A stretch of DNA of 45,813 nt. Source: Cytophagaceae bacterium (lineage in GTDB: Bacteria > Bacteroidota > Bacteroidia > Cytophagales > Spirosomataceae). The translations under genes were made by a program, and so were the position numbers. Positions 2,938-17,939 of the stretch are shown in pieces. The stretch covers positions 1 to 45,813 of the forward strand of contig JAJAZB010000290.1 of assembly GCA_026785975.1 (NCBI GenBank), in the 5' to 3' direction. Under the pieces are notes generated by a model, which saw only the letters and a list, made by a program, of their open reading frames with translations, did no database searches and was not told the origin of the DNA. Within the stretch, counting starts at the first letter, position 1, and each line of letters opens with the position of its first letter.

Positions 2938-3822
2938 CTATGCTTCCCACGCCACGGCCACTTGCCGCTGCACACCCAGGCCGTCGATGCCGAGTTCCAT
3001 CACGTCGCCCGGTTTGAGGTACACGGGCGGCTTCATGCCCAAGCCAACACCGGGCGGCGTGCCGGTTGAAATGACATCGCCGGGCAACAGCGTCATAAAC
3101 TGACTGATGTAGCTGACCAACTGGGGCACGTTGAAAACCAGTTGGTTCGTATTCGAGTTCTGAAACGTCTGGCCGTTTACTTTCAACCACAGCGGCAGGT
3201 TGTGCGGGTCGGGCACTTCATCGGCGGTGACGAGGTACGGCCCCAGCGGCCCGAAGGTATCGCAGCCTTTGCCTTTGTCCCACTGCCCGCCGCGCTCGAG
3301 TTGAAATTCCCGCTCCGAAAGGTCGTTCATCACGGCGTAGCCGCCCACGTACTCCATCGCTTCCTCCTCGCTGACGTAGCTCGCCTCCTGGCTGATGATC
3401 ACGGCCATTTCCACTTCCCAGTCGGTTTTCTGGCTGTTTTTCGGAATCACCACGTCGTCGTTCGGTCCGGCCAGAGCGCTGGTGGCTTTGAAAAACAAGA
3501 TCGGTTCTTTCGGAATTTCAGCGCCCGTTTCGCGGGCGTGATCGGCGTAGTTGAGGCCCACGCAGATAATTTTGGAGGGCCGGGCCACGCAGGGGCCATA
3601 CTCGATCTCGCCCTCGATGGCCACGAGTTCGGTGGTGCCAAACTCATCCAAATAGTTTTGCAACACCTCCAAACCATTGATATCGAAGAAGGTTTCGTCG
3701 AGGTCAAAAGCGCCGGTGTCCGGGCCGAGTTCATCAAAAAAACCTTCGAGGCTGTAGTGTACGCCGTCGATGAGCACGCCGGGAATGATGTCGTCGTTGG
3801 CGACGTAACGGAAAAGTTTCAT
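2938..3822 (-). CDS. Fumarylacetoacetate hydrolase (FAH) family protein
   Basis: Member of the FAH superfamily, whose enzymes hydrolyse, decarboxylate or isomerise 2-oxo or acylpyruvate compounds using a carboxylate-bound Mg/Mn ion. The 294 residues comprise an N-terminal cap (about 1-80) and the FAH catalytic fold. The metal ligands are visible as Glu136 and Glu138 in DWEVEMAV and Asp167 in NDLSER. The VGLNYADHARE, PILFFKATSAL and ISTGTPPGVGLG segments are family hallmarks. The length and organisation match the ureidoglycolate-lyase-like / acylpyruvase-like branch, but the substrate cannot be read from sequence. It starts with ATG. A -7-like element (TACCTTTG on the minus strand, 3921-3928) lies about 100 bases upstream without a good -33 partner. 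Confidence 0.92.
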   Translation of the reverse strand: MKLFRYVANDDIIPGVLIDGVHYSLEGFFDELGPDTGAFDLDETFFDINGLEVLQNYLDEFGTTELVAIEGEIEYGPCVARPSKIICVGLNYADHARETGAEIPKEPILFFKATSALAGPNDDVVIPKNSQKTDWEVEMAVIISQEASYVSEEEAMEYVGGYAVMNDLSEREFQLERGGQWDKGKGCDTFGPLGPYLVTADEVPDPHNLPLWLKVNGQTFQNSNTNQLVFNVPQLVSYISQFMTLLPGDVISTGTPPGVGLGMKPPVYLKPGDVMELGIDGLGVQRQVAVAWEA

Positions 3823-3999
3823 TTCAATTAGGAATTAGGAAATCGAAGATTCAGTGAAACCAATTAGGAATTTTTGCCTTGGGCTACTTCGTTTTCACCT
3901 CAAGCACACTATTTCACGGGCAAAGGTAGGTACAAACAGTGAGGGGTTTCGGGTTTCTTAAGAACGTGCCGAAAACGCTGGTTGTCGCCTGTGGGGGCC

Positions 4000-4671
4000 T
4001 TATTTCGTCAACACCGCCAACATCTGTTCCGCCACGAATTGATTGCCCGATTCGTTGAGGTGTACCCGGTCGGTGGTGAGGATGCCTTTTTCCTCGTTCT
4101 TCGGGTTGTTTTTCAAGTTGTAATCCAGAAAAGCTTTGCGTAAGTCACAAACGGGCACGTTCTGCCGGGCGGCTACCTCGCGGATGAGCGTGGCGTAGCG
4201 TTGTAAATCTCCGTCTTGTTCATTCGAAAAATCAGTCCGCTCGCCGATGGTCGACGGGGTGCAAACGATGGGCCGGATGCCATTGTCCTTTAGCTTTTTA
4301 ATAATCGCTTCGTAAAATTTCACGAATTTATCCGGGTCGGTGCCGGTGCCGGAGGTGCGCTTGTGCCAGACATCGTTGACCCCCACCCAAACTACGACCA
4401 CGTCGGGTTTTTGCGCCAGCACGTCCTCGTCCATGCGCAGGAACAGATCGTACACTTTGTTGCCGCCGATGCCCTTGCCGACGAGTTCGTAGTCGGCTTT
4501 TTTGCCCGCTTTTTCGAGCAACTGTCCCAACTTCGTGATGTACCCGGTAGGACTGACGCCCGCCTGCGTGATGGAATCGCCAAAGAAAACGACTTTGGTG
4601 GGCTTGGTTGATCGGAAGGCGAGTAGACTGACGAGCAGTAGAACGGTTAGAGAGGATTTGAAATAATTCAT
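4000..4671 (-). CDS. Exported SGNH/GDSL-type hydrolase
   Basis: Predicted secreted esterase/lipase of the SGNH superfamily, probably an acyl- or acetyl-hydrolase in the periplasm. Residues 1-20 form a hydrophobic signal segment (MNYFKSSLTVLLLVSLLAF). The block residues are present in order: Ser33 in FFGDSIT, the glycine block GKGIGGNKV near 66-73, Asn99 in VGVND, and the catalytic Asp201/His204 pair in DRVHLN. At 223 residues it is a compact single domain. The natural substrate (xylan acetate, rhamnogalacturonan or lipid) is not determined. It has its own promoter candidate at 4718-4746 and is probably monocistronic. Confidence 0.93.
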   Translation of the reverse strand: MNYFKSSLTVLLLVSLLAFRSTKPTKVVFFGDSITQAGVSPTGYITKLGQLLEKAGKKADYELVGKGIGGNKVYDLFLRMDEDVLAQKPDVVVVWVGVNDVWHKRTSGTGTDPDKFVKFYEAIIKKLKDNGIRPIVCTPSTIGERTDFSNEQDGDLQRYATLIREVAARQNVPVCDLRKAFLDYNLKNNPKNEEKGILTTDRVHLNESGNQFVAEQMLAVLTK

Positions 4672-4717
4672 GGTAAACGAGTTGGTTAGGTTTAAAAATT
4701 GCTCAGGTGAGGTGGCT

Positions 4718-4746
4718 CAAATTTATGAGGTAATCCGTTCAATCAA
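4718..4746 (-). promoter_or_regulatory. Bacteroidetes-type promoter for the SGNH hydrolase
   Basis: Read on the minus strand: TTG (4744-4746), 18-base spacer, then TAAATTTG (4718-4725). This fits the known Bacteroidetes primary-sigma pattern TTG-N17-23-TAnnTTTG. It lies about 45 bases upstream of the ATG at 4671. The remaining gap up to 4905 shows only a weak six-base hairpin near 4842-4858. Confidence 0.55.
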
Positions 4747-4905
4747 GTACGGCACAACTTACGAAAGTAAGGCCTAAATGCCAGCGGATGTCGCGTTGGA
4801 CTTGTGGCAAGCGATTGATAGCCGCTCACTACAACCTTGGGAATCACCTGAAGTGATTTCTTGATGGGTCAGAATTGGGAAGTGAAAAATGACCTCGTAA
4901 CGTTT

Positions 4906-5943
4906 TCACTGGATAAATCCCCAACTGGTGGGTGCCCATTCTGAAGCATTCGGACCGGCAGGCTTCAATGAAAATAACCGTAGGGATTGCCCCTCGCGCA
5001 AAAGGCTGCTGGCAGCGCTGGATACGCGAATCACCCGTTGACCGTCCTCAAAAAAGATGGTCGTTGTGTCGCCTGCTTCCCGTAAGCACTCCACGGTTCC
5101 AAAACGCTCCCGACCTGGTTCGGGTTGATACGCCGGGCAGGCGGGCCGACTTTCGCAGGAGTGGCAGCGTTCCTTGTCAGGTCGGGCGAGGATTGGCCAA
5201 TCGGCTTCGCGCCAGTGTAGGTTCGTTTTGGTCAATACGGCTACCACCTCGTCGGCAAAAGCCCGGCATTCTTCGGGCGAGAAGGATAATTCAACCGGTT
5301 CGCCCACCAAAGGCTCCAGCCAAATTTTGTCGGGATGAATGCCCAGCGTTTCACGCATCATGAAGGCGTACAGCTTCATTTGGGCGAGGTATTCGGGTTT
5401 CAAGGCCCCGTTACTGTCGGTCAGTAGCCCGGTTTTGTAATCCACAAGTTCCCAGTACCCATCGCGATATCGAATCAAATCAGCCCTGCCCGCCAGTTTT
5501 CCCCCGAATCCGCTGAGCCATTCCTCTACTTTTTCCGATGGTTCGTAGGGCGTTCCGGGCGGCGCGTCAGTCGGTTCGTCAGAGATCGGAAAACTGGCCG
5601 CTTTGCGCAACGCAGCGTTGTAACGAAGTCCGTAGTTTTTCACATTGTGTTTCAAAGGCAATAGCGCTTCATATCCAGCCTCCCGACATTTCTGGTGCTG
5701 GGCTTCGAGACTTTCTTCGAGATATTGGCGCAAACCTGCTTCGTCCCGAACACCGGTTTGCACTGCCCACTGAAACAAGTCGTGAACCGCCGACCCGAAG
5801 TAGGTGTACACCGTGGGCGGCAGCAATTCGCCGTAGGTGTTGCGCAGGACAAGCCGAAGCGGGCAGTCGAGCAGCCGTTGGACCTGGCTCGGGCTAATGC
5901 GGCGCAAGGGCTGAAAATCGCCCTGAGGTAAGCGCTTAATCAT
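4906..5943 (-). CDS. PD-(D/E)XK nuclease, Cas4/AddB-like, with Fe-S cluster cysteines
   Basis: Predicted RecB-family DNA nuclease of 345 residues. The motifs run in order: ISPSQVQRLLDCP near residues 16-28 with Cys27, GSAVHDLF with His54, the catalytic core GRADLI (Asp155) and VDYKTG (Asp168, Lys170), then QMKLY (Gln188, Tyr192). A cysteine triplet follows at Cys260, Cys263 and Cys269 (CHSCESRPAC). Cys27 plus this triplet is the [4Fe-4S] arrangement known from AddB and Cas4. The last 70 residues look like a small beta domain of unknown role. Its ATG overlaps the helicase stop by eight bases, so the two are translationally coupled and it is the last gene of the defence-like operon. No cas genes or repeats are nearby, so a Cas4 adaptation role is unlikely. 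Confidence 0.88.
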   Translation of the reverse strand: MIKRLPQGDFQPLRRISPSQVQRLLDCPLRLVLRNTYGELLPPTVYTYFGSAVHDLFQWAVQTGVRDEAGLRQYLEESLEAQHQKCREAGYEALLPLKHNVKNYGLRYNAALRKAASFPISDEPTDAPPGTPYEPSEKVEEWLSGFGGKLAGRADLIRYRDGYWELVDYKTGLLTDSNGALKPEYLAQMKLYAFMMRETLGIHPDKIWLEPLVGEPVELSFSPEECRAFADEVVAVLTKTNLHWREADWPILARPDKERCHSCESRPACPAYQPEPGRERFGTVECLREAGDTTTIFFEDGQRVIRVSSAASSLLREGQSLRLFSLKPAGPNASEWAPTSWGFIQ

Positions 5944-8900
5944 GACCTTTCAATTGATGGTAACTCCAGCCCACGCGCCGGAGCAGGTTGAACGAGTCGA
6001 GGAAGCGAGTTGGAGTTTGATTGTTGCGCTGTTCGAGTTCGCTAAGTAATTTCCCCAGCCACGTATCCGGTTCCTGACTCGTCGTCCGCCAGAAGGGGTG
6101 CCAAATCGGAATCAACTCGCTTTTTGCCTTGCCCCTTTTCTTTTTTACGAAAGAAACCTCCGGGAAGCCGGGGAGTGCTGCTTCCTCGAACTCATCGCCG
6201 AAACCAGCCAGAAACACCGTCGTTAGTTTTGCCGTCAGGCGTACCCAGTCAGCCATTTCGGGGTCGTTAAAATTTCCATCGGCACCGAAAGTGTGGGCGG
6301 GATTCTTGAGCAAGCGCAACAAACCCAGGCCCAGCCGCCAGTCGAGCAGGGGGTGGAAGTTCATGTTTTGGTACACCCGCAGGCATTCGTAACAGGCTGA
6401 ATCACAGTTTTTCCGGTGCGTATCGCTTTGAATGTTTTCGGTAAATGAACCGGTGTTGGTGGGTTGCAGAATGTCATCTAAAATTTCCCCGAAATGGTCG
6501 TGGAGGTAGCGCACGAACCCGGAGCCGTTGGCCAGTTGGTCGGTCAGGATGATTTCAGCACCGAAAACTTCCTGGTTGAAAAGGTGACGTCCTGTGCCTT
6601 TCCGGACGATGTCGGCGATTTCGATCTCGCTGGGATCCACGTCGAGGCGGTCGGCCAAAGTACGTTGCAGCAGGAAAGCCGCTGAGTAGTAGGCGGCTTT
6701 TACGCCTAAGTTTTCCTTCCAGAACAACTCCACGTCCAGTAGCGAATCCAGCGGCGAGAGCCGCAGGATTTCGGTGGTTTTACCCGCCGCCAGCGCAATG
6801 GACTCAGGGCTTCCTTCGGAATTTTTAGTCCGCATCGCATGACCAGTTTGTTTATTTTCCGTTCCTGTCAAGGATTCTGACAACCACTGGTTAAGTAGCG
6901 TAACGGGGTAATCGCGATTGGGGAACCACTGTTCTGTACTGTAAAACTGCCCTTCAAAAAACCGTTCGGCGTTGGTGTTGACGCGCCAGGCCTTATCGGT
7001 TTGTGAAAGGACGAGGCTGCAATTTCCAACGATTTTCGGTTGCATCGACCCGCTCCCGTCCTTACTAATTTCGGCGAGAATGGGCGTCCGTTGGCTCGTC
7101 AGGTCGTCCAAATCCCGGTCGTCACGGCCAGGGGAAAGGTCGGTGCGAAAGGCCCTGGGCGTGCGAATAATCATCGGAGGAGCGTCGAGAAAACAGGCTT
7201 CGCAAAGAATATCATCGGGTTCAAACAGGTAAGTGCGCGTGAAGCCGCAGGTGGTACACCGCTTCATCCAGCGGTTGACGGCGAACGTCTGCCCGAGGGC
7301 ATCGAGGGGCTGGCCGTTGTCCAGTAGTTTTAACACGCCAAGTTTCGGGTTTTTTCCGCCTTCGCGGATGTTGGCAAGCGTTCCCGTGAAGCCAATCACC
7401 CGGTGAATGGCCTTGTCTTTGGTTTTCTGACTACCCGGCGCAAATTCACTCAGAGCCACGTTCTCCGACCGGTCGATGGTGTTCAGATGCCATTCTCCGT
7501 CTTTGAATTCCGCTCCGTGAAACAGGTTTTGGGATGTCGTGGGCATTCCAAACATGGGAAACAATCCGCCTTCGGCCAGGCACTCGCCCAGGTCGTCGGC
7601 CACGATTTCGTTTTTGTCGGAATACGAACTCAGATGGTCCACGCCGGGCAGCAAGTCGGTGACGACCCAGGCGGTAAGTTCCTCCTGGCCAGTCGGGTCG
7701 GGCCAGAGTTGAGCGACCAGGTTCTGGATTTCCCGTCCGTTCGTTGACACCCACCGCTCCACGGTCGGGCGGTAGGTAGGCCAGTTGGTGCGGGTACCCA
7801 ACTCGCCGTGGACATTCACGGGTCGCCGGGCGTCTTCGTCGGCAAGGCTAACCGTCCGAAACGCCCGCCGAAGTACCTCTTTGGCCAGTAGTCGCTGGGC
7901 GATGGAGCGGTTTTCCGCCTTCCCGACCGTCAAAAACGGCGGGGGCGGGGTGTCGCCGGTGATTTTGTGCGGATTGTCAAAATAAAATTCGTCGTGGCTG
8001 CGACCCCGGCAGAAGGTCAGAATGGCCGAATACGCCTGTCCCCGCCGACCGGCCCGGCCCACCCGCTGTTGGTAGTTGAAGCGTTGGGGCGGCATATTGG
8101 CGAGCATCACGGCCTGCAAAGCACCGATGTCCACGCCCACTTCGAGCGTGGTCGTTACGCTGAGCAAATCAATTTGCCGGGCCAGGCGGTAGGGCCGCTC
8201 GGATTCGTTCACAAAAATATCGCGGAAGTGGCGCTGACGCTCAAACTGGTCGTCGGTTTGGCCGGTCATTTCCTCGCAATGCAGCCGGATGGGTAGGCGC
8301 TTTTCAATCGTCGCGTGGTAAGCCAGGTAGTGTTTTTCCCGCAGGCTTTCCACCGTATTCGTGGGTTCGGCGTCCAACTTTTCACCCGAAAACGTGCAGA
8401 TGCCCGCCGAAAAATGGAGGTGATGGCGGGGTGATTTAGGCCCCGTCCAGACTGCGGCCTTTTCGGAGACAGGGCGCACAAAAAGGTTTTCCAGCACCAC
8501 GCCTTTTTCCATATCCAGCAAACCGAAGTGGCGGAGGCTGCGCCAGACGGTATCCCCCAACGTGGCTTCGGCTATACCGTGTTTAAAAGCTACTCGCCTC
8601 AGGTACTTTTTAACCTGGGGTTTGAATTTCTCCCAATCGGTCAGGTTTGAGAAGTTGTCGAATTCGCGGTCGGGATGGTTGTGCTGAAAGTTTTCGCCCA
8701 TGAGCCGAACCGTGCTGTCGAGTACCTGGCGAAAGGTAGTTTCCGAAAAACGGGTTGAGGCCGCGAAGGGCTTCAATTCCTCATCGGTGCGCCCAACGGT
8801 GAGGTAGGCCAACCCGGCCGATTCGAGCGAAAAAAAGAGCCGTCCGAAAAACACCGGGGCCAGTTCTTCGTAGGTACTGCGCTCGATGTCGCGCTGAAAT

Positions 8901-11900
8901 TCCCGGTCAGCGGCCTTCCACTTCTGCTTTTCAAAATCAATAACATCCCACCAATTTGGCCGTACTCCGTCCCGACGAACGGCCTTCTGCACGTCGAGGT
9001 CGTTGCCGCCGGGGTTAACGCCCAACGCGACCAAAGCCCGCACGAGTGGGGTCATGGCGGTCTGGTCAGTCCCAACTTCCACGAGGTCACGCACGAGCAC
9101 GGTGGCGTCGAGGTAAGGAGCGAGTGACTGCCGGGCCGTTTCCCGGCGCTGCATTTTGCTGGCGTTGGAGCTGTCAGGTTGGTCGGCCTGCTCCACGAGG
9201 TCTTCCAGTTTATCGACCAGTTCCGGGTGTTCAGCACGAAATTCAGCGAGGCCACCGGCATCAGCCCCACGCAGGGCCGCGACGATTTGCTCGCCCACCA
9301 ACACGTTCCGCTGCAAGTACCCGATGAGCACCTCGCGTAGCAAATCGGTGAAATGGCTGCGCTCGATGCCGTTGGCGATGGAAGCGGCCTCTTCCCGACT
9401 GTCGGAAAAAACAACCAGTTTGCGTTGTTGCGAAGTCGGGGGTAATTGGTAGAGCAGTTCTTTGGCCAGAATCTGGGCCGCTTTGGCAAAGCCCGTGCGG
9501 AAGCCCCGCACCGAACTTAGCATTCGCTTTTTGCTGTCCTGCTGGTGTTTGCTGTGGTTCACGCCGCAGGCCGGGCACACGCAGGGCATGGCCCGGTGAG
9601 TGGTTTGGATGAGTTTCGTCTGCGTATCCTTCCAGTCCTGCACATCTTGACCGCGTTGGGTATCCCCATGACGCACGGTGAACACGTAGCCGTCTTTCCA
9701 AACTTCGCTTCCATCGGCCTTTTCACGGGGAAGTTGAATAGCCCCCGTTTTGAGGTGCAAGCGAGCAGATTCCCAACGTCCCGTAAAATCTTTTTGGTTC
9801 TCGGAACTACCGGGCGTCGTGGCCTGTCGCCATTCGTTGGTCGATTTTTCCAGCACAAATTCCTGCCCGCCCTGGGGCCAAAACACGGCGTATTCCTGGT
9901 ACGGACGCTGCTCAATGAGAACGGTCGTTGAGCGACTGGGGGCTTTTTCGAGGTCGGCACTGACGGGCAGCAGTTCACAGTGAAATGTCTCTTCCGGTAC
10001 GTGTCGGGTGCCGCCCAGAAAAACGGTTCCACAGTTTTCACAACGCAGCAAATCGAAAACCCGGTTGTCTGCTTCGGAGAGGATTCGCGGGGCGGTGTGT
10101 AATTTCCCAATCGGTCCTCCGTCGGTCGCGGTGGCTTCAGTTGGGTCGGCGGAGGCCCATAACCCTTCGAGGTTGCGGAAGAAAAAATGCAACCGGAATC
10201 GGGGTAAGTCTACTTTCAGGTTTTTCAGGCTGTCGGCCAGGCCCCGCGCCAGCAGCAAGCCCCGCGTGGCCGGGCGTAGCACCTCGTCGGGTTGTTGGCC
10301 AAAAAGTTCTTCTGAGAAAAAAGGCAGGAGCGAATCCGGTTCATCCGGGGTTCGGAAGGTAACCACGGCTCGTTCCCGACCATCGACGGTGCAAGCCCGG
10401 CGCATCCGGGTCGCCAGGTGCAGGTGGTCGTGGGTAAGCACGGAAAGCAGGCGCTCCCGGCCTTCGGTCGGTGGCGGTTGAAGGCCGTACTGTTTCGCCA
10501 GTTCGTCAGCCACGTTGGCGCAGGTCGTCAGGAACTCAGATTCGATGGGATTTCCTTTGTAAATCTCCGCCAGTCGCACAAAGGGTGCCGTGGGCAGCAC
10601 GTCGGCGGGGGCGGGGGGCAACGGAGTCGATTCACCCGCAATCAGGCTAAAGCGGTCAAACGGACAGCCAAAAAAGTCTTTCAGGAATTTTTGACTGTCC
10701 TCACTCTCGTCGAGCGAGGCACTGGAAGCCAGAATGCGGAGTTGTTGGTGTTTTGGGTCCAACCCGAGGCGGTCGAGGAGAATGCGCAGCAGGTAGGCCA
10801 CTTCGCTGCCGGGTGTACCCCGGTAGAGGTGGAGTTCATCCACGACGAGGTGAAAAATACGCGATTCATCGGCGGCCAGCCAGCGGCGGGTTTCCTCAAA
10901 CACGGGCGCATCCACCTCGCGCATGAGCATGATGCCGAGCATCGAAAAGTTGGTGATGAGCAAATCGGGCGGCGTGACCTGCATATCGAACCGGCTGCGG
11001 AGTTCGGCCCCGTCGGGTCGGGGGAAAAACGAGCGGATTTCCACCGGGTCGGGGGGTGTAAGTCCCAAATTCCTGGCTTCCTGCACCCGTTGCTCAAATT
11101 CAGTGCTTTCCAGGTAATCGTCAATCTCGGTTGAGGTGTTGGCCAGTTGGGTCAATGCTCGTTTCAACTTCTCGATTTTGCGGGTGTCCGCCTGCGGGGT
11201 ACCGTTATCATCGGGTTTCCGTAAATCACCGGGCACGGGGGTAGCCCCGTTATAACGCCCGAAATAAAGCCGGTTGCCCTGCCCATTTTTGGAAAACCAC
11301 TTTTGGGCCTGGTCCGAATCGAGAGCTTGGCGGAGGCGCGTCATCTGGTCTTCCACCAGGGCGTTCATCGGGTACAAAAGCAGGCCCCTTACCGCCGCCG
11401 GGCGGGATTCGTGGCCGCGTTGACGAACGGCTTGGCTGAGTTGAAACGTCGTAGAATCAATGCACTTTTTGTCGGAAACGCCGCCATTTTTGCCATTCCC
11501 ATTCCACCAGGTATGGGCCGTGGAAGCGGTTGAGGGAGCGGGCAGAAAGTGCGGCAATTCCCGGCACAACTGGGCCAGTCGGGCAAAAAAACACGACTCG
11601 GTTTTACCCGAACCGGTGCCGGTCGTAATCACGCAATTTTTCCCCGAAAGGCTTTCGCGCAGCATCCGGGCCTGGTGTTCATACAACGCGCGGTCGGCGG
11701 GAAAAAGGCCGCAGGCCGCCAGGGTTTTGAAGGTGTTCCGTTCCGTTTCGCTCAGGCCGGGAAGGTCGGCTTCTTCTAAATCAAACAGTCTTTTCTGGCT
11801 GGAAGGGTACTCGGGCAGGGGTTCAATCCAGGGTTGACGATGAAACACCTTGTCGCGCCGGAGCAAGGCCAGGCGTTCGGCGTTGAGCGAATCAAACCGG

Positions 11901-11974
11901 GTAGCAAAGGCCGTTCCGACGTAGCGTTGAAAATGGTCGGTGATGGTATCGAAGGCGAGGATGGGGTCGGTCAT
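5936..11974 (-). CDS. Very large DEAD/DEAH helicase with DUF1998-type C-terminus (DruE-like)
   Basis: Superfamily 2 helicase of 2012 residues. RecA1: a Q-like YEHQ near 98, Walker A TGTGSGKT (118-125, Lys124), motif Ia LLLYPMNALVEDQ near 198-210, DELH box (379-382) and motif III SAS near 418. Cysteine pairs CENCG near 643 and CPACG near 800 sit in the long middle region. RecA2: EVGVDIG near 1275 and motif VI QRVGRAGRRG near 1303. The C-terminal part has a CTTCG...CEAC zinc site (about 1570-1593) and the cluster CDSACYEC near 1856 followed by LDWRLGLGLLRLL, the DUF1998 signature. Size and domain order match the Druantia DruE class better than the shorter MrfA or DISARM DrmA helicases; this rests on architecture, not alignment. 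Its ATG overlaps the upstream gene's TGA by four bases. The frame is intact. Confidence 0.9.
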   Translation of the reverse strand: MTDPILAFDTITDHFQRYVGTAFATRFDSLNAERLALLRRDKVFHRQPWIEPLPEYPSSQKRLFDLEEADLPGLSETERNTFKTLAACGLFPADRALYEHQARMLRESLSGKNCVITTGTGSGKTESCFFARLAQLCRELPHFLPAPSTASTAHTWWNGNGKNGGVSDKKCIDSTTFQLSQAVRQRGHESRPAAVRGLLLYPMNALVEDQMTRLRQALDSDQAQKWFSKNGQGNRLYFGRYNGATPVPGDLRKPDDNGTPQADTRKIEKLKRALTQLANTSTEIDDYLESTEFEQRVQEARNLGLTPPDPVEIRSFFPRPDGAELRSRFDMQVTPPDLLITNFSMLGIMLMREVDAPVFEETRRWLAADESRIFHLVVDELHLYRGTPGSEVAYLLRILLDRLGLDPKHQQLRILASSASLDESEDSQKFLKDFFGCPFDRFSLIAGESTPLPPAPADVLPTAPFVRLAEIYKGNPIESEFLTTCANVADELAKQYGLQPPPTEGRERLLSVLTHDHLHLATRMRRACTVDGRERAVVTFRTPDEPDSLLPFFSEELFGQQPDEVLRPATRGLLLARGLADSLKNLKVDLPRFRLHFFFRNLEGLWASADPTEATATDGGPIGKLHTAPRILSEADNRVFDLLRCENCGTVFLGGTRHVPEETFHCELLPVSADLEKAPSRSTTVLIEQRPYQEYAVFWPQGGQEFVLEKSTNEWRQATTPGSSENQKDFTGRWESARLHLKTGAIQLPREKADGSEVWKDGYVFTVRHGDTQRGQDVQDWKDTQTKLIQTTHRAMPCVCPACGVNHSKHQQDSKKRMLSSVRGFRTGFAKAAQILAKELLYQLPPTSQQRKLVVFSDSREEAASIANGIERSHFTDLLREVLIGYLQRNVLVGEQIVAALRGADAGGLAEFRAEHPELVDKLEDLVEQADQPDSSNASKMQRRETARQSLAPYLDATVLVRDLVEVGTDQTAMTPLVRALVALGVNPGGNDLDVQKAVRRDGVRPNWWDVIDFEKQKWKAADREFQRDIERSTYEELAPVFFGRLFFSLESAGLAYLTVGRTDEELKPFAASTRFSETTFRQVLDSTVRLMGENFQHNHPDREFDNFSNLTDWEKFKPQVKKYLRRVAFKHGIAEATLGDTVWRSLRHFGLLDMEKGVVLENLFVRPVSEKAAVWTGPKSPRHHLHFSAGICTFSGEKLDAEPTNTVESLREKHYLAYHATIEKRLPIRLHCEEMTGQTDDQFERQRHFRDIFVNESERPYRLARQIDLLSVTTTLEVGVDIGALQAVMLANMPPQRFNYQQRVGRAGRRGQAYSAILTFCRGRSHDEFYFDNPHKITGDTPPPPFLTVGKAENRSIAQRLLAKEVLRRAFRTVSLADEDARRPVNVHGELGTRTNWPTYRPTVERWVSTNGREIQNLVAQLWPDPTGQEELTAWVVTDLLPGVDHLSSYSDKNEIVADDLGECLAEGGLFPMFGMPTTSQNLFHGAEFKDGEWHLNTIDRSENVALSEFAPGSQKTKDKAIHRVIGFTGTLANIREGGKNPKLGVLKLLDNGQPLDALGQTFAVNRWMKRCTTCGFTRTYLFEPDDILCEACFLDAPPMIIRTPRAFRTDLSPGRDDRDLDDLTSQRTPILAEISKDGSGSMQPKIVGNCSLVLSQTDKAWRVNTNAERFFEGQFYSTEQWFPNRDYPVTLLNQWLSESLTGTENKQTGHAMRTKNSEGSPESIALAAGKTTEILRLSPLDSLLDVELFWKENLGVKAAYYSAAFLLQRTLADRLDVDPSEIEIADIVRKGTGRHLFNQEVFGAEIILTDQLANGSGFVRYLHDHFGEILDDILQPTNTGSFTENIQSDTHRKNCDSACYECLRVYQNMNFHPLLDWRLGLGLLRLLKNPAHTFGADGNFNDPEMADWVRLTAKLTTVFLAGFGDEFEEAALPGFPEVSFVKKKRGKAKSELIPIWHPFWRTTSQEPDTWLGKLLSELEQRNNQTPTRFLDSFNLLRRVGWSYHQLKGHD

Positions 11975-13758
11975 TTTACGGCAAGGCTTGAGGTTTGTCC
12001 GAGTTTATTCCTTAAAAAATTAGTAATCATCGGGGTGGCGGCACCCTGGTACACCCGGTAGAACTTGACTTGCGGCCACTCGGGAGTACGAAACCCGGCC
12101 AGGCGCGGCAGCTTGCCGCTCATCAACGTCAGGGCGCGGGCGAAAAAGCGGGGCAGCGGCATAAAAAGCGGAATGGCCAGATTCGGCCCGTTCTCAATGA
12201 TTACGGGCAGAAACTCCTCCCGTTCGAGGCTGTGAACCTTCACCAATTTCCGAAATGATGCAGCTACGGCGTAGCGCCCCCAGTTTCTGTCGGCCGGGTA
12301 AGGCACCCCGTCTAACCAGTGCCGGACTTCCCGTTGCCAGGTTTGGAGTTTATATTCTATCAGTGCGGAGGTAGAGTCAAATGACCCGGGGTTGAATTTG
12401 AGTGAATCCTTGTGAAAAGGATGGGCAAACTCCGGCCAGTACGCGGCGTTTTCGCAGGGCGTGGACGAACGGACGGTTTGCCAGTAATCGCTTACGGTGG
12501 CCGAAGCGTCGAGCAGGCCAAACTGCGGCAGTTCGCTGGCGCGAAACGGAATTGCGAGTTGCCCGGCCAGGGCTTCGAGTTGGGCTTTCCCGGCAGAAAA
12601 GTCCGATTGGATGAAAACCGAACCGGGAACCAGCGGATCGTTGGCTTCATCACCGCGTTCGATACTGAGTTGAAGAAGCGAATAATTGGGCATTAACTCG
12701 CTGATTTTCAGTAGCAATTCGGGCGAACGCCGCCCGACCAGCATAGCCCGGCAGCCCCGTACCGTTCGGACGGGGACGAGTTGGGTCTGATTGAGGTAAA
12801 TCCGTTTGCGTTCGGGTTCGTATTCCAGGTACCCCAGGGCATCCCAGTCGAGCAGGGCGTAGCGCTTACGCCGGGTCATCCGCTCAAAATTAATTCCGGC
12901 AATCTCGCTCACCCGCCCGAAGGCTTCGGTAAATGCCTCCACCGACCACTCCGGTTTGGTGGATAAAAAATGCAGCAGGTCGTCGCCAGGAGTCGTTTCA
13001 GATTGGGCAACGTGGGGAGGATGCCGTTGGCCGAGGTCGTTCCCCGGAAAAAAGAAGTGCCGGTTCGCGTGTTGGAAATTAAAATCCGTGCCTTGCGATT
13101 CCAACCCCGATACAGCGGCCAATTGTCCGGGTTCAATCCGCTTCCCGAATTGGTTCCATCCCGGAAAATTCTCTGCCAACTCCCCGGAAAGTTGGGACGT
13201 AAACCGAAGCAAGGCCTTGCCTTCGAGCGATTCATCTTTTCGGTGCAGCCGGAAGGCCCCCTCGTCGGGAAAATCGTCGGGAAAGTGAAACAACGAGGGG
13301 GCTTCAGGGTCTTGAAAAAGCGGAATACGCTGCCTGCCGTCGTCCAGCACGGCCTCTACCTGTTCATCGGTAGTTCCCCCTTCCACGCGCACCGTGGGCG
13401 GGAAGGGCCGGAAATACGTCGTCGGGTTGATGGTCAGGCCACTGGTCAACAGCAAGTTTTTCTGCACAGGCTGGTTGGCATTGGGAAGCCAGGCGGGCGC
13501 GGAAGGCGGATTTCGAAAACGAAAAAGCCGGAAGCCGGTCGGCAGGTTTTCCGTGTCGTCTCCCGCATTGAGTTCCTGCCAATCTCCGTCGGCGAAGCCC
13601 TGACTCCAGGCGGTCAGCTGCTCCGGCAGGGCGGCTGGTGCGAGCAGGTACATCCGGGTTCCGTCGAAGAGCAGGCGCTGGGTTTCGAGCCAATTACCTT
13701 TGCCCAATCCCTCGTAATCACCCCGGATGAAAAGCCGACATCCCAGTTTGGCGGGCAA
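11971..13758 (-). CDS. C-terminal part of a large unknown defence-operon protein (after an in-frame TGA)
   Basis: I recognise no family. The frame encodes 595 residues if the TTG at 13758 is used, but it is open and in phase with the preceding frame: only four codons separate the upstream TGA (13771-13773) from this TTG, and no ATG occurs in the first 35 codons. That pattern suggests one gene of about 964 codons (11971-14865) interrupted by a single nonsense codon, since TGG to TGA would restore it. The protein looks soluble and beta-rich, with no transmembrane segment and no nuclease, ATPase or methylase motif that I can see. A basic patch near residues 294-297 (TRRKRYAL region) may bind nucleic acid. 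Its TGA overlaps the helicase ATG by four bases (ATGA), implying tight coupling with the helicase. Confidence 0.7.
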   Translation of the reverse strand: MPAKLGCRLFIRGDYEGLGKGNWLETQRLLFDGTRMYLLAPAALPEQLTAWSQGFADGDWQELNAGDDTENLPTGFRLFRFRNPPSAPAWLPNANQPVQKNLLLTSGLTINPTTYFRPFPPTVRVEGGTTDEQVEAVLDDGRQRIPLFQDPEAPSLFHFPDDFPDEGAFRLHRKDESLEGKALLRFTSQLSGELAENFPGWNQFGKRIEPGQLAAVSGLESQGTDFNFQHANRHFFFPGNDLGQRHPPHVAQSETTPGDDLLHFLSTKPEWSVEAFTEAFGRVSEIAGINFERMTRRKRYALLDWDALGYLEYEPERKRIYLNQTQLVPVRTVRGCRAMLVGRRSPELLLKISELMPNYSLLQLSIERGDEANDPLVPGSVFIQSDFSAGKAQLEALAGQLAIPFRASELPQFGLLDASATVSDYWQTVRSSTPCENAAYWPEFAHPFHKDSLKFNPGSFDSTSALIEYKLQTWQREVRHWLDGVPYPADRNWGRYAVAASFRKLVKVHSLEREEFLPVIIENGPNLAIPLFMPLPRFFARALTLMSGKLPRLAGFRTPEWPQVKFYRVYQGAATPMITNFLRNKLGQTSSLAVK

Positions 13759-13770
13759 AGTACGTGCCTT

Positions 13771-14865
13771 TCAACGGTTGGCTGTGTCGGCCAGGTCGTA
13801 GCCTGCGGGAAGAAAGGGCAAGTCGATTTGCTCCGACCAGCGGTTGTAGCTTTCTTCAACGCGCCATTCGTCTCCTTTTTTATCGGTGAAAACCAGGTGT
13901 TCGGGATAATCCTGGGGCGCAAACAGGCGGTAAAACGGCTCGAAGGTGTAGTCGTGTTTAAGTTTAAACCCAAACCGCAGGCTGGCCGAAACCTGAGTAA
14001 ATTCCGGCTCCTGCCGTTCGGTTGCGCCGGGATTTTTCTGAGTTGTAAGCACCACAGTCGTCCGGCTGTACTTCGAAGTTCCGTCCCAACGACCGAATTC
14101 CCTCCGCACCAACCCTTCGACGGTCGCAGCCACTTCACCGCCCAACTTTACGGCTGCCAAAACGTTGGCTTTCAATCCCAGGCCAGCACCTTGTTTTCGG
14201 ATAAACTCCCCAATCTCGTCGCTGGTCAGCAGTTGCCCCGGTACCCAACCCATGCGGTCGAAGGCGTTGGGCAACTCGCGCAGTGCTGAAGTGGGCAGCA
14301 GGCACTGGGCAAAGGCTTTGCCGACGTAGCGGTACGTGTTCGCAGAAAGTAAGGTTGCATCAAAAAGGCCCAGTTCACCTCCTTTCGCTTCCTGCGACCA
14401 ATCGGCGACGCGCTGCCAGGCCCGATTCCAGTTGTGACTTTCATTATGCTCCCGCAACGATGGCAGGTTGTGCTGCTCAAAAAACTGGCTGGCGCGTTGG
14501 TAGTAGTTGGTCGTGCTGAATTTGAATTGCTCCGCTTCCTCAGCCAGCGGCATTACGCTCAGAACAAGCAGTAGGAGGCAGGGCGGAAACTGAGTTTGAA
14601 AAGTCTGTCCGCCCATCATCCTATCCTGAAACGAGGCATTCAGGGCCGTTTCGATTTTTTCCAGCAACGAGCCATTCTGGGGTGAATAACTCCTGACCGC
14701 CCGACCAAAATCCGCCCAGACTGCCTGCTCGTCGGCGTCGGGGAGTTGGGTTTTGCCGAGTTCAATCAGTTTTTCGCGGGACAGGTACAGAAAAACGGGC
14801 TGCTGGCTGTATTCGGGCCGAAAGAGGTACTCCCCAATCAGGTTGTTCCAATCGAAACGATGCAT
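13771..14865 (-). CDS. N-terminal part of a large unknown defence-operon protein (ends at an in-frame TGA)
   Basis: Frame of 364 residues from the ATG at 14865 (starting MHRFDWNNLIGEYLF); an upstream TTG at 14910 would add 15 poor residues and is less likely. The first half looks alpha-helical, with a hydrophobic stretch (PPCLLLLVLSVMPLAEEAE, about residues 94-112) that is short for a membrane span. The second half looks beta-rich and contains many aromatic and charged residues. No known domain is recognised. It ends in DLADTANR then TGA, and the same frame runs straight on into the 595-residue frame downstream. I infer a single protein of about 963 residues in the ancestral state, cut by one stop. 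Two separate genes remain possible. Confidence 0.65.
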   Translation of the reverse strand: MHRFDWNNLIGEYLFRPEYSQQPVFLYLSREKLIELGKTQLPDADEQAVWADFGRAVRSYSPQNGSLLEKIETALNASFQDRMMGGQTFQTQFPPCLLLLVLSVMPLAEEAEQFKFSTTNYYQRASQFFEQHNLPSLREHNESHNWNRAWQRVADWSQEAKGGELGLFDATLLSANTYRYVGKAFAQCLLPTSALRELPNAFDRMGWVPGQLLTSDEIGEFIRKQGAGLGLKANVLAAVKLGGEVAATVEGLVRREFGRWDGTSKYSRTTVVLTTQKNPGATERQEPEFTQVSASLRFGFKLKHDYTFEPFYRLFAPQDYPEHLVFTDKKGDEWRVEESYNRWSEQIDLPFLPAGYDLADTANR

Positions 14866-14939
14866 TGTTTTCAAAAAAGAAGGAGCGGTTAAGCGTTCTG
14901 TAAGCAACAAAAAAGCGCCTTTCTTTCCAAGTCATTGGC

Positions 14940-15512
14940 TCAGAAACCCGAACGAAATAATTCCACCCAGAGCCGAATCAAGTCGAACGGGTAAGGATAC
15001 ACGGTGTGCTGCCCGTTGCGGACGAACCGAACCGCCAGCGTTTCGAGCAGGTCGTCGAGATGAGCCGGTTCTCCCGGCCAGAACACTAATTGCCGCAGGC
15101 TCACGGCGCGTTCTTCGGTGGATTTCAACCCTTCCGCCGAACCGACAAAGTACTTTTGTTCGGCGGAGAGGTAGCCCACGCCAACCATTCCCTCCGTCGT
15201 AGTTTTGGTTCTCGTCTGCCGCTCAAGGGTCGAATCATAGGGAAAAAGTACCCGCTCCTCGGTGTCCTGGATTTCAAGCGCGTAGCCCGGCCCGAACACG
15301 AAGTACTGCTGGCGGAGTTTGCGGTCCTGGTCTTTATCGGGAATATTTTCCAGAATTCTGGCCTCAGGTTCAGCCCAGTCCGTGCCCCGTTCGGCGAGCC
15401 ATTCCCGGCGCAGTTAGTTGTCAACGAAGATTTGGTTATGGAACTGGCGCGACTGGGTGGCCGGGTACAAATCCTGCGCCCCGAATCGCTTCGGCAACAC
15501 GCACGCAAACAT
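14940..15512 (-). pseudogene. First gene of the defence-like operon, unknown family, interrupted by TAA
   Basis: The same frame runs from an ATG at 15512 to a TGA at 14940-14942, 190 sense positions, except for a TAA at 15414-15416 after 32 codons. Downstream of that stop no ATG occurs before the GTG at 15299; a CTG follows the stop directly. Protein quality is continuous on both sides (QFHNQIFVDN, stop, LRREWLAERGTDW), so a single CAA-to-TAA change is the simplest reading. No family is recognised; the C-terminal half contains GMVGVGYLSAEQKYFVG and ends LIRLWVELFRSGF. It lies 74 bases upstream of the next gene's ATG and would be the operon leader. Alternatively a shorter gene starts at GTG 15299 (119 residues). 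Confidence 0.55.
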
Positions 15513-15626
15513 TTATTACAGGCAATTATTTCATTGGACTCGGTTTGCCAGGAATGAGCGCCAGTATTTTTTAAGGCTTCAAATTTTGCAAAAAATGGTG
15601 GGCGGTCCGACGGGTCGGTTTGAAGG

Positions 15627-16391
15627 CTAATTATTCAACTTCACAAAGCCCCCATCAATCGGGTAATCACAGCCGGTGATGAAACCCGCCTCGTCCGAGC
15701 ACAGAAATAGCGCCAGTGAAGCGATTTCTTCGGGCCGGGCCATGCGGCCAATGGGCTGGCTGGCTTCGAGTTTGGCAAACATTTGTGCTTCGGTTCCGGG
15801 GTAGTTTTTGGCCAGAAATCCGTCGACAAACGGCGTGTGTACCCGCGCGGGCGAAAGGCTGTTGCAACGAATGTTGGCTTTCAGGTAGTCTTTGGCCACC
15901 GACAACGTCATCGACAACATGGCTCCCTTGCTCATTGTGTAGGCGAAGCGGTCGGGAATACCCACCAGGGCCGCTACCGAGGCCAGGTTGAGAATCACGC
16001 CACCACCCTGGGCTTTCATCCGGGGCACGGCGGCGTAAAGGCAGTTGTACGCGCCCTTGACATTGACGGTAAAAATCCGGTCAAAATCGGCTTCGGTGGT
16101 GCCTTCCAGATTGCCTACGTGGGCAATTCCCGCGTTGTTGACCAGGATATCGACCCGGCCAATTGTCTCGAAAACCGCCAGCACGTCGGCCTGCGAAGCG
16201 ATGTTGCAGACCTGAGCGGTTGCTTGCCCACCCGCCGCCGCAATTTCATCCACGACGGCACGGGCGGCGTTTTCATTGAGTTCCAGAATGTGAACGTGGG
16301 CACCCTGCCGGGCAAATAACATACTGATGGCTCGCCCAATGCCACTGCCGCCGCCCGTGATGACGGCTATTTTGCCGGATAAATCGAACAT
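15627..16391 (-). CDS. SDR-family NAD(P)-dependent oxidoreductase
   Basis: Classical short-chain dehydrogenase/reductase of 254 residues; cytosolic. The cofactor-binding TGGGSGIG lies at residues 12-19, the structural NNAG at 85-88, and the catalytic Ser138 and Tyr151-x3-Lys155 (YTMSK) are all present. Acidic residues after beta-2 (ILELNEN, Glu37) favour NAD over NADP. The C-terminal substrate loop is of normal length and the protein ends YPIDGGFVKLNN. SDRs with this ending are often sugar or sugar-acid dehydrogenases in Bacteroidetes, and the divergent neighbour is an L-fucosidase, so a role in fucose or related sugar oxidation is possible, but this is inference from position. Confidence 0.93.
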   Translation of the reverse strand: MFDLSGKIAVITGGGSGIGRAISMLFARQGAHVHILELNENAARAVVDEIAAAGGQATAQVCNIASQADVLAVFETIGRVDILVNNAGIAHVGNLEGTTEADFDRIFTVNVKGAYNCLYAAVPRMKAQGGGVILNLASVAALVGIPDRFAYTMSKGAMLSMTLSVAKDYLKANIRCNSLSPARVHTPFVDGFLAKNYPGTEAQMFAKLEASQPIGRMARPEEIASLALFLCSDEAGFITGCDYPIDGGFVKLNN

Positions 16392-16530: not shown

Positions 16531-17939
16531 ATGTTCTTATTCCGGATTACTCTTCTGCTGCTAATCGCCTGCCGGGTCTCCGCTCAGGAATTTACCCCGC
16601 TCAAACCTCACGGGGCGGTACCTTCACCGCAACAAATCGCCTGGCACCGGCTCCAGTATTACGCGTTCGTGCATTTCAACATGAACACCTTCACCGACAA
16701 GGAGTGGGGCGAGGGCCGCGAAAGCCCGGAGGCCTTCAACCCGACCGCGCTCGACTGTCGGCAGTGGGCGCGCATCTGCAAGGCGGCGGGCATGAAGGGC
16801 ATTATCCTGACCGCCAAGCACCACGACGGATTTTGCCTCTGGCCAACTGCATTCAGCGAGCATTCCGTAAAAAATAGCCCCTGGCGCGAGGGCAAAGGCG
16901 ACTTGCTCCGTGAACTCGCCGATGCCTGCAAAGCCGAGGGATTGAAATTTGGCGTGTACCTCTCGCCCTGGGACCGCAACCATCCCAGCTACGGCACGCC
17001 GGAGTACAACGAAGTTTTTAAAAACACCCTCACCGAGGTACTGACCCGGTACGGCGACGTGTTTGAAGTGTGGTTTGACGGGGCCAACGGCGAAGGGCCG
17101 AACGGCAAAAAGCAGGTATACGACTGGCCGGGCTTTGTCGGGGTGGTTCGTAAACATCAACCCAACGCGCTCATTTTTAGCGACGCCGGGCCGGATATTC
17201 GCTGGATCGGGAATGAAAAAGGCCACGCCTGGGCCACCAACTGGGCCACGCTCAACCGCGATAAATTTTACCCCGGCTACCCCAAAGCGGACGAATTTAA
17301 AGCGGGCAATGAAGACGGTACCCACTGGGTGCCCGGCGAGGTGGACGTGTCGATCCGGCCGGGCTGGTACTACCACGCCGAGGAGGACGGCAAGGTCAAA
17401 ACGCCCGATTCGCTGCTGCGCATCTGGTACGCTTCGGTGGGGCAGGGAAGCAATTTGTTGCTAAATATTCCGGTGGACCGGCGCGGGCAGATTCACCCCG
17501 CCGACTCGGCCAGCCTGATAGGTTTCAAGACCCTTCGCGATAGTGCGTTTGCCCGAAATCTGGCCCTGAATCAAGTGGCCAAACCCACCACCAGCCGACC
17601 GGGAGCCGTAGCGGCGCACTTGCTCGACGGTAATCCCGACACCTACTGGAGTACGCTGCCCGGCGTCCGAACTGCCTCCATCGAACTCGAGCTGGGGGAT
17701 GATTTTAAAGAATTTACCACGGTTGTTTTGCAGGAAGGCATTCAGTTTGGGCAGCGGGTGAATCCTTCAACGTCGAAATTTTTGATTCCGAAAAAGATAA
17801 ATTTGTGGAAGTCGCGCGGGGCACTACCATTGGCCCTCAGCGCGTTCTGACGTTTCCCCGACAGCGCGCGTACCTGATGCGCATCAATATTCAGTCGGCG
17901 AAAGATAGCCCGGTACTGACTGAAATCGCGGTTTATTGA
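16531..17939 (+). pseudogene. Alpha-L-fucosidase (GH29), frameshifted near its 3' end
   Basis: Secreted retaining alpha-L-fucosidase cleaving terminal fucose from glycans. A signal peptide (about 1-18, ending RVSAQ) precedes the GH29 TIM barrel. AKHHDGF (about 95-101), YLSPWDRN and the nucleophile loop EVWFDGANGEG (Asp183) are clear. A discoidin-like beta domain starts near residue 345. The original frame stops at 17850 (439 residues) with an atypical tail. From 17763 the +2 frame continues as SFNVEIFDSEKDKFVEVARG and ends EIAVY then TGA at 17937-17939, exactly as expected for the family. GTG at 17758-17760 is followed by AA and then TCC, so one base is missing at about 17761-17762. The break falls in the accessory domain, so the truncated enzyme might still be active. 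A sequencing error is equally possible. Confidence 0.88.

Follow-up and report, generated by a model that had tools for sequence, protein, structure and literature searches.

A probably eroded Druantia locus, closest to type IV, between SDR and GDSL-lipase genes of a Spirosomataceae-type host

The gene run at 4906-15512 on the minus strand of the window, by which we mean the whole stretch of 45,813 nucleotides analysed, is most likely a Druantia locus that resembles type IV most closely, was acquired horizontally, came to lie between an SDR and a GDSL-lipase gene of a Spirosomataceae-type host and is now eroded. It adds a new member to a class of systems already known. A preliminary description of this DNA had seen a Druantia-related defence module, which the family profiles for DruE, DruF, DruL and DruK bear out, and had put it forward as a candidate undescribed system. 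That proposal did not survive a PADLOC run on the proteins: DruE, DruF, DruL and DruK all have models there, which rules out an undescribed system, and type IV was published in 2021.

A check of open reading frames and junctions recovered the compact arrangement originally reported. The nuclease gene druK (4906-5943) overlaps druE (5936-11974) by eight bases (5936-5943), druE overlaps the third gene (11971-14865) by four (11971-11974), and 74 bases (14866-14939) separate the third gene from the first when the former is taken to start at the ATG at 14865. Four genes had been counted, and two of them are not open. In the gene described as encoding about 960 residues, the reading frame runs into a TGA at 13771-13773, and the one credited with about 190 residues contains an in-frame TAA at about 15414-15416, which limits it to at most 157 codons (14940-15413).

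The helicase has the 2012 residues first reported and belongs to the YprA/DUF1998 family of SF2 helicases. It matches the PADLOC models DruE2 and DruE4 end to end (1700 and 1560 bits, residues 1-2009) as well as the Pfam families DEAD and Helicase_C, and its Walker A, DELH, motif VI and zinc cysteines are all intact (TGTGSGKT, DELH, QRVGRAGRRGQ). Against the DruE family profile the solved 1970-residue helicase 9wae aligns from one end to the other at 1204 bits, whereas the solved YprA/MrfA reaches a weak 45 bits. These scores and the full-length DruE match rule out an MrfA-type repair helicase, a grouping that the preliminary description had named, together with a lack of linkage of the two unknown genes in other genomes, as the objection to its own reading. 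The nearest relative of the window DruE is 49% identical to it, and in a tree drawn from the best 80 loci it falls within the clade that combines fused DruF-DruL, DruK and DruM (support 0.996-1.0), beside G176. A search of the rest of the genome found no second DruE and no intact DruF-DruL. The nuclease, earlier called a Cas4/AddB-like PD-(D/E)XK protein, was likewise found again, with 345 residues and an intact frame; it matches PADLOC DruK (1.7e-18) and Pfam PDDEXK_1 (7e-21) and scores 394 bits against a DruK profile of our own. It carries the motif GRADLI..VDYKTG and four cysteines, which likely hold an Fe-S cluster.

The third gene is a druF-druL fusion. Its open frames comprise 379 residues in the longest form, with a TTG start, and 595 residues; counted from the ATG at 14865, the part before the TGA is 364 codons long, so the stop is codon 365. 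Both halves are matched by PADLOC DruF4 (PDLC00054), and DruL4 (PDLC00056) is matched at 2e-29; a Pfam search returned no match. Since the DruF profile covers residues 1-364 up to the TGA and continues with 366-591 beyond it, the stop replaces a single residue, and the corresponding column is tryptophan in 45 of 63 DruF homologues. That the profile spans the stop, and that uninterrupted DruF-DruL homologues of 937-1032 residues exist, indicates that the two halves are one protein in relatives. Recoding of TGA is ruled out, as htpG, druK and other genes of this genome terminate normally at this codon. The surveyed homologues are at most about 50% identical, too distant for a selection analysis of the halves. 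AlphaFold models of DruF-DruL are confident (mean pLDDT 88 and 93), and a Foldseek search with them gave no significant match. VIA-align gave as its highest matches an Ig-like stretch (Z 7.8, 86 residues aligned, rmsd 2.5) and, within DruL, a winged-helix-like stretch (Z 7.3, 66 residues aligned, rmsd 2.6); both lie within the range expected without true kinship, and a function assigned from structure was accordingly rejected.

Two partners of the helicase and nuclease had originally been left without a family. The larger is the DruF-DruL protein, and its link to DruE stands; the smaller has no such link in the relatives examined. The codons at 14940-15413 match the C-terminus, about 140-157 residues, of proteins of about 700 residues (L015, L016, L134-L136), which adjoin a P-loop (SF2-like) ATPase of about 1190-1290 residues rather than Druantia. 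None of the 11 family and order relatives examined gene by gene links the first gene to DruE, so the suggestion that all four genes act together falls away. The first gene is what remains, at the C-terminal end, of a protein from a rare module separate from Druantia, and is not part of that system. The parent module, seen in 4 of 380 genomes of the order, is itself an uncharacterised two-gene unit (L015 4894-10962, L134 6024-11715, L136 4678-10372); neither full-length protein has a match in Pfam, PADLOC or NCBIfam, and in L016 and L135 the ATPase is truncated or disrupted.

The whole island occupies 4672-15626, between the GDSL-lipase gene (4000-4671) and the SDR gene (15627-16391). In 11 of 11 relatives (L037-L047) these two genes are direct neighbours, 18-266 bp apart, as against 10,955 bp in the window, and the locus is thus an insertion, as had been proposed from its position between two ordinary genes. 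No integrase was seen within the island, no tRNA was found at it, and its edges show no target-site repeats longer than 8 bases. Beyond the SDR gene, an alpha-L-fucosidase gene (16531-17850) appears frameshifted at its 3' end, near 17770-17850; its homologues are longer, and a homologous-looking C-terminus goes on in another frame. This may be a pseudogene or an assembly error, the source assembly being a fragmented draft of 523 contigs, 87.7% complete.

A genome scan with DruE as a single protein returned nothing; the 80 loci of the wider survey below come from an alignment-based scan. In 11 loci of the family and order (L011-L014, L028-L034) druF-druL, as a single protein in most of them, is followed by druE and then usually by druK, with a C5 methyltransferase gene adjoining; the two methyltransferases tested both match the DruM2 model. 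The set linked in relatives is DruF-DruL, DruE, DruK and C5 methyltransferase, without the first gene that the preliminary description had included. We scored the best 80 loci, mainly from Bacteroidota with others from cyanobacteria, Bacillota, archaea and further groups, using profiles built in this analysis, and in this sample, whose proportions are not unbiased, 76 have DruL upstream of DruE, 37 have DruF and DruL fused and 47 have DruK next to DruE. Separate DruF and DruL proteins also exist in other lineages. Where DruK is a neighbour and the retrieved sequence extends 1.3 kb or more past it, a C5 methyltransferase is present in all 43 loci, directly downstream of druK in 35; of the 25 loci lacking DruK, 16 have one (Fisher p = 4e-5, uncorrected for relatedness).

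Some relatives carry further genes of note. Vsr-type mismatch endonuclease genes, one assigned by profile and the others by near-identical N-termini, lie just upstream of druF (L029 3306-3743, L030 15556-15993, L033 16778-17242), and such genes would be consistent with an active 5-methylcytosine methyltransferase in the cassette. In L013 an apparent extra restriction component (3851-4405) is encoded between druK and the methyltransferase gene; its match is to the N-terminal domain of AspBHI, a methyl-directed enzyme. L033 holds two open reading frames of 284 residues whose first 25 residues are identical, one between druF-druL and druE (12832-13686) and one downstream of the methyltransferase gene (3147-4001), at nearly equal positions relative to the operon ends; they possibly reflect a recent insertion of a transposable element into the operon.

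Type IV was defined by DruE, DruF and DruL, without DruM or DruG (PMC8565338). The window has the DruE helicase, a DruF whose frame is interrupted by the TGA and a DruL fused to it, with F-L upstream of E. PADLOC found neither DruM nor DruG among the island proteins, and a C5 methyltransferase profile search of the window gave no match. It differs from type IV in the fusion, in the DruK directly after DruE and in the interruption, and its relatives differ further in carrying a DruM-like methyltransferase, which the published definition excludes. Type II (DruM, DruF, DruG, DruE) shares DruE and DruF, and the relatives' methyltransferase fits the DruM2 model; here, however, DruM and DruG are missing and DruL and DruK are present. 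With type III (DruH-DruE) the locus shares the YprA-family DruE helicase core, but no DruH was found and the nuclease is a separate DruK rather than C-terminal PLD domains. DISARM, ARMADA and Dpd also have a YprA-family helicase (PMC12458937), the feature they have in common with the window. DISARM and Dpd are ruled out, as the DrmA and DpdJ/DpdF profiles match helicase motifs only, and weakly; the DrmA/DrmB/DrmC set was not found, with no DrmB or DrmC among the matches listed.

The copy in the window probably no longer restricts phage, judging by a DruF-DruL cut in mid-DruF and a methyltransferase that is gone. As the window DruE lies inside the clade with fused DruF-DruL, DruK and methyltransferase, loss of the latter is more likely than primary absence. 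Some observations weigh against this. DruM is not a requirement of type IV as published, and the druE and druK frames are open throughout and their motifs preserved, which is unusual for an old pseudo-operon. The latter would sit well with a locus that is in fact intact in the cell, its TGA an assembly or sequencing error and its methyltransferase on an unassembled contig. The TGA could stem from a sequence error, given that the neighbouring fucosidase gene also looks frameshifted, and the methyltransferase could lie in the roughly 12% of the genome that is missing from this draft. We nevertheless consider an intact locus unlikely. The TGA needs a single-base substitution, which is less usual among assembly errors than an indel. 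In relatives the methyltransferase is local to the cassette, whereas the island here reaches the GDSL gene without a contig break. The draft genome contains a single C5 methyltransferase, which lies on a different contig and reaches only 51.6 bits against the DruM profile.

A split but working DruF-DruL, in which translation restarts at the TTG at 13756-13758 and the halves assemble, seems quite improbable. This start lies 12 bases past the stop and is preceded, at a distance of about 8 bases, by AAAGG, and other lineages do have DruF and DruL as separate proteins. Those separate DruF proteins, however, mostly have about 560-780 residues and end at the DruF/DruL boundary, not near residue 350; in the model of an intact homologue, residue 349 is predicted to lie in a confident beta-rich domain (pLDDT block about 93). 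A new four-gene system with the short first gene as a genuine component is scarcely credible: the shared strand and 74-base spacing speak for it, against the missing link to DruE in the 11 relatives, the full-length homologues beside a different ATPase and the fact that the window holds a C-terminus only, behind a TAA. We thus prefer the reading of an acquired and since eroded Druantia.

In intact relatives the system comprises DruF-DruL, DruE, DruK and the DruM-like C5 cytosine methyltransferase. Gene set, order, catalytic motifs and the co-occurrence of DruK with the methyltransferase are observed; the roles given here are inferred from domain content, from that co-occurrence and from published work on type III DruE, which describes a helicase-nuclease with a preference for 3'-tailed DNA that acts on intermediates containing single-stranded DNA (PMC13192584). 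DruM would place 5-methylcytosine on host DNA as a self mark, and DruF-DruL would recognise unmarked or replicating foreign DNA and load onto it. The DruE helicase would then open the duplex, and DruK, as an Fe-S/PD-(D/E)XK nuclease, would cut the exposed strand in place of the type III PLD domains. More speculatively, and with some doubt on our part, the Bacteroidota combination may be a distinct subtype between II and IV, a helicase-driven restriction-modification system whose DruK cuts DNA lacking DruM's 5-methylcytosine and could not be sustained in active form without DruM; the window would then be a nuclease-without-methylase escapee, rendered harmless by loss of DruF-DruL.

The locus itself is ordinary, one more Druantia and probably a broken one. 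The one useful lead is the tight pairing of DruK with a methyltransferase, a component absent from type IV as published. A C5 methyltransferase in every surveyed DruK-adjacent locus that could be judged, with Vsr added in several relatives, suggests that the DruK-bearing branch of Druantia may mark self by 5-methylcytosine, an idea that is directly testable.
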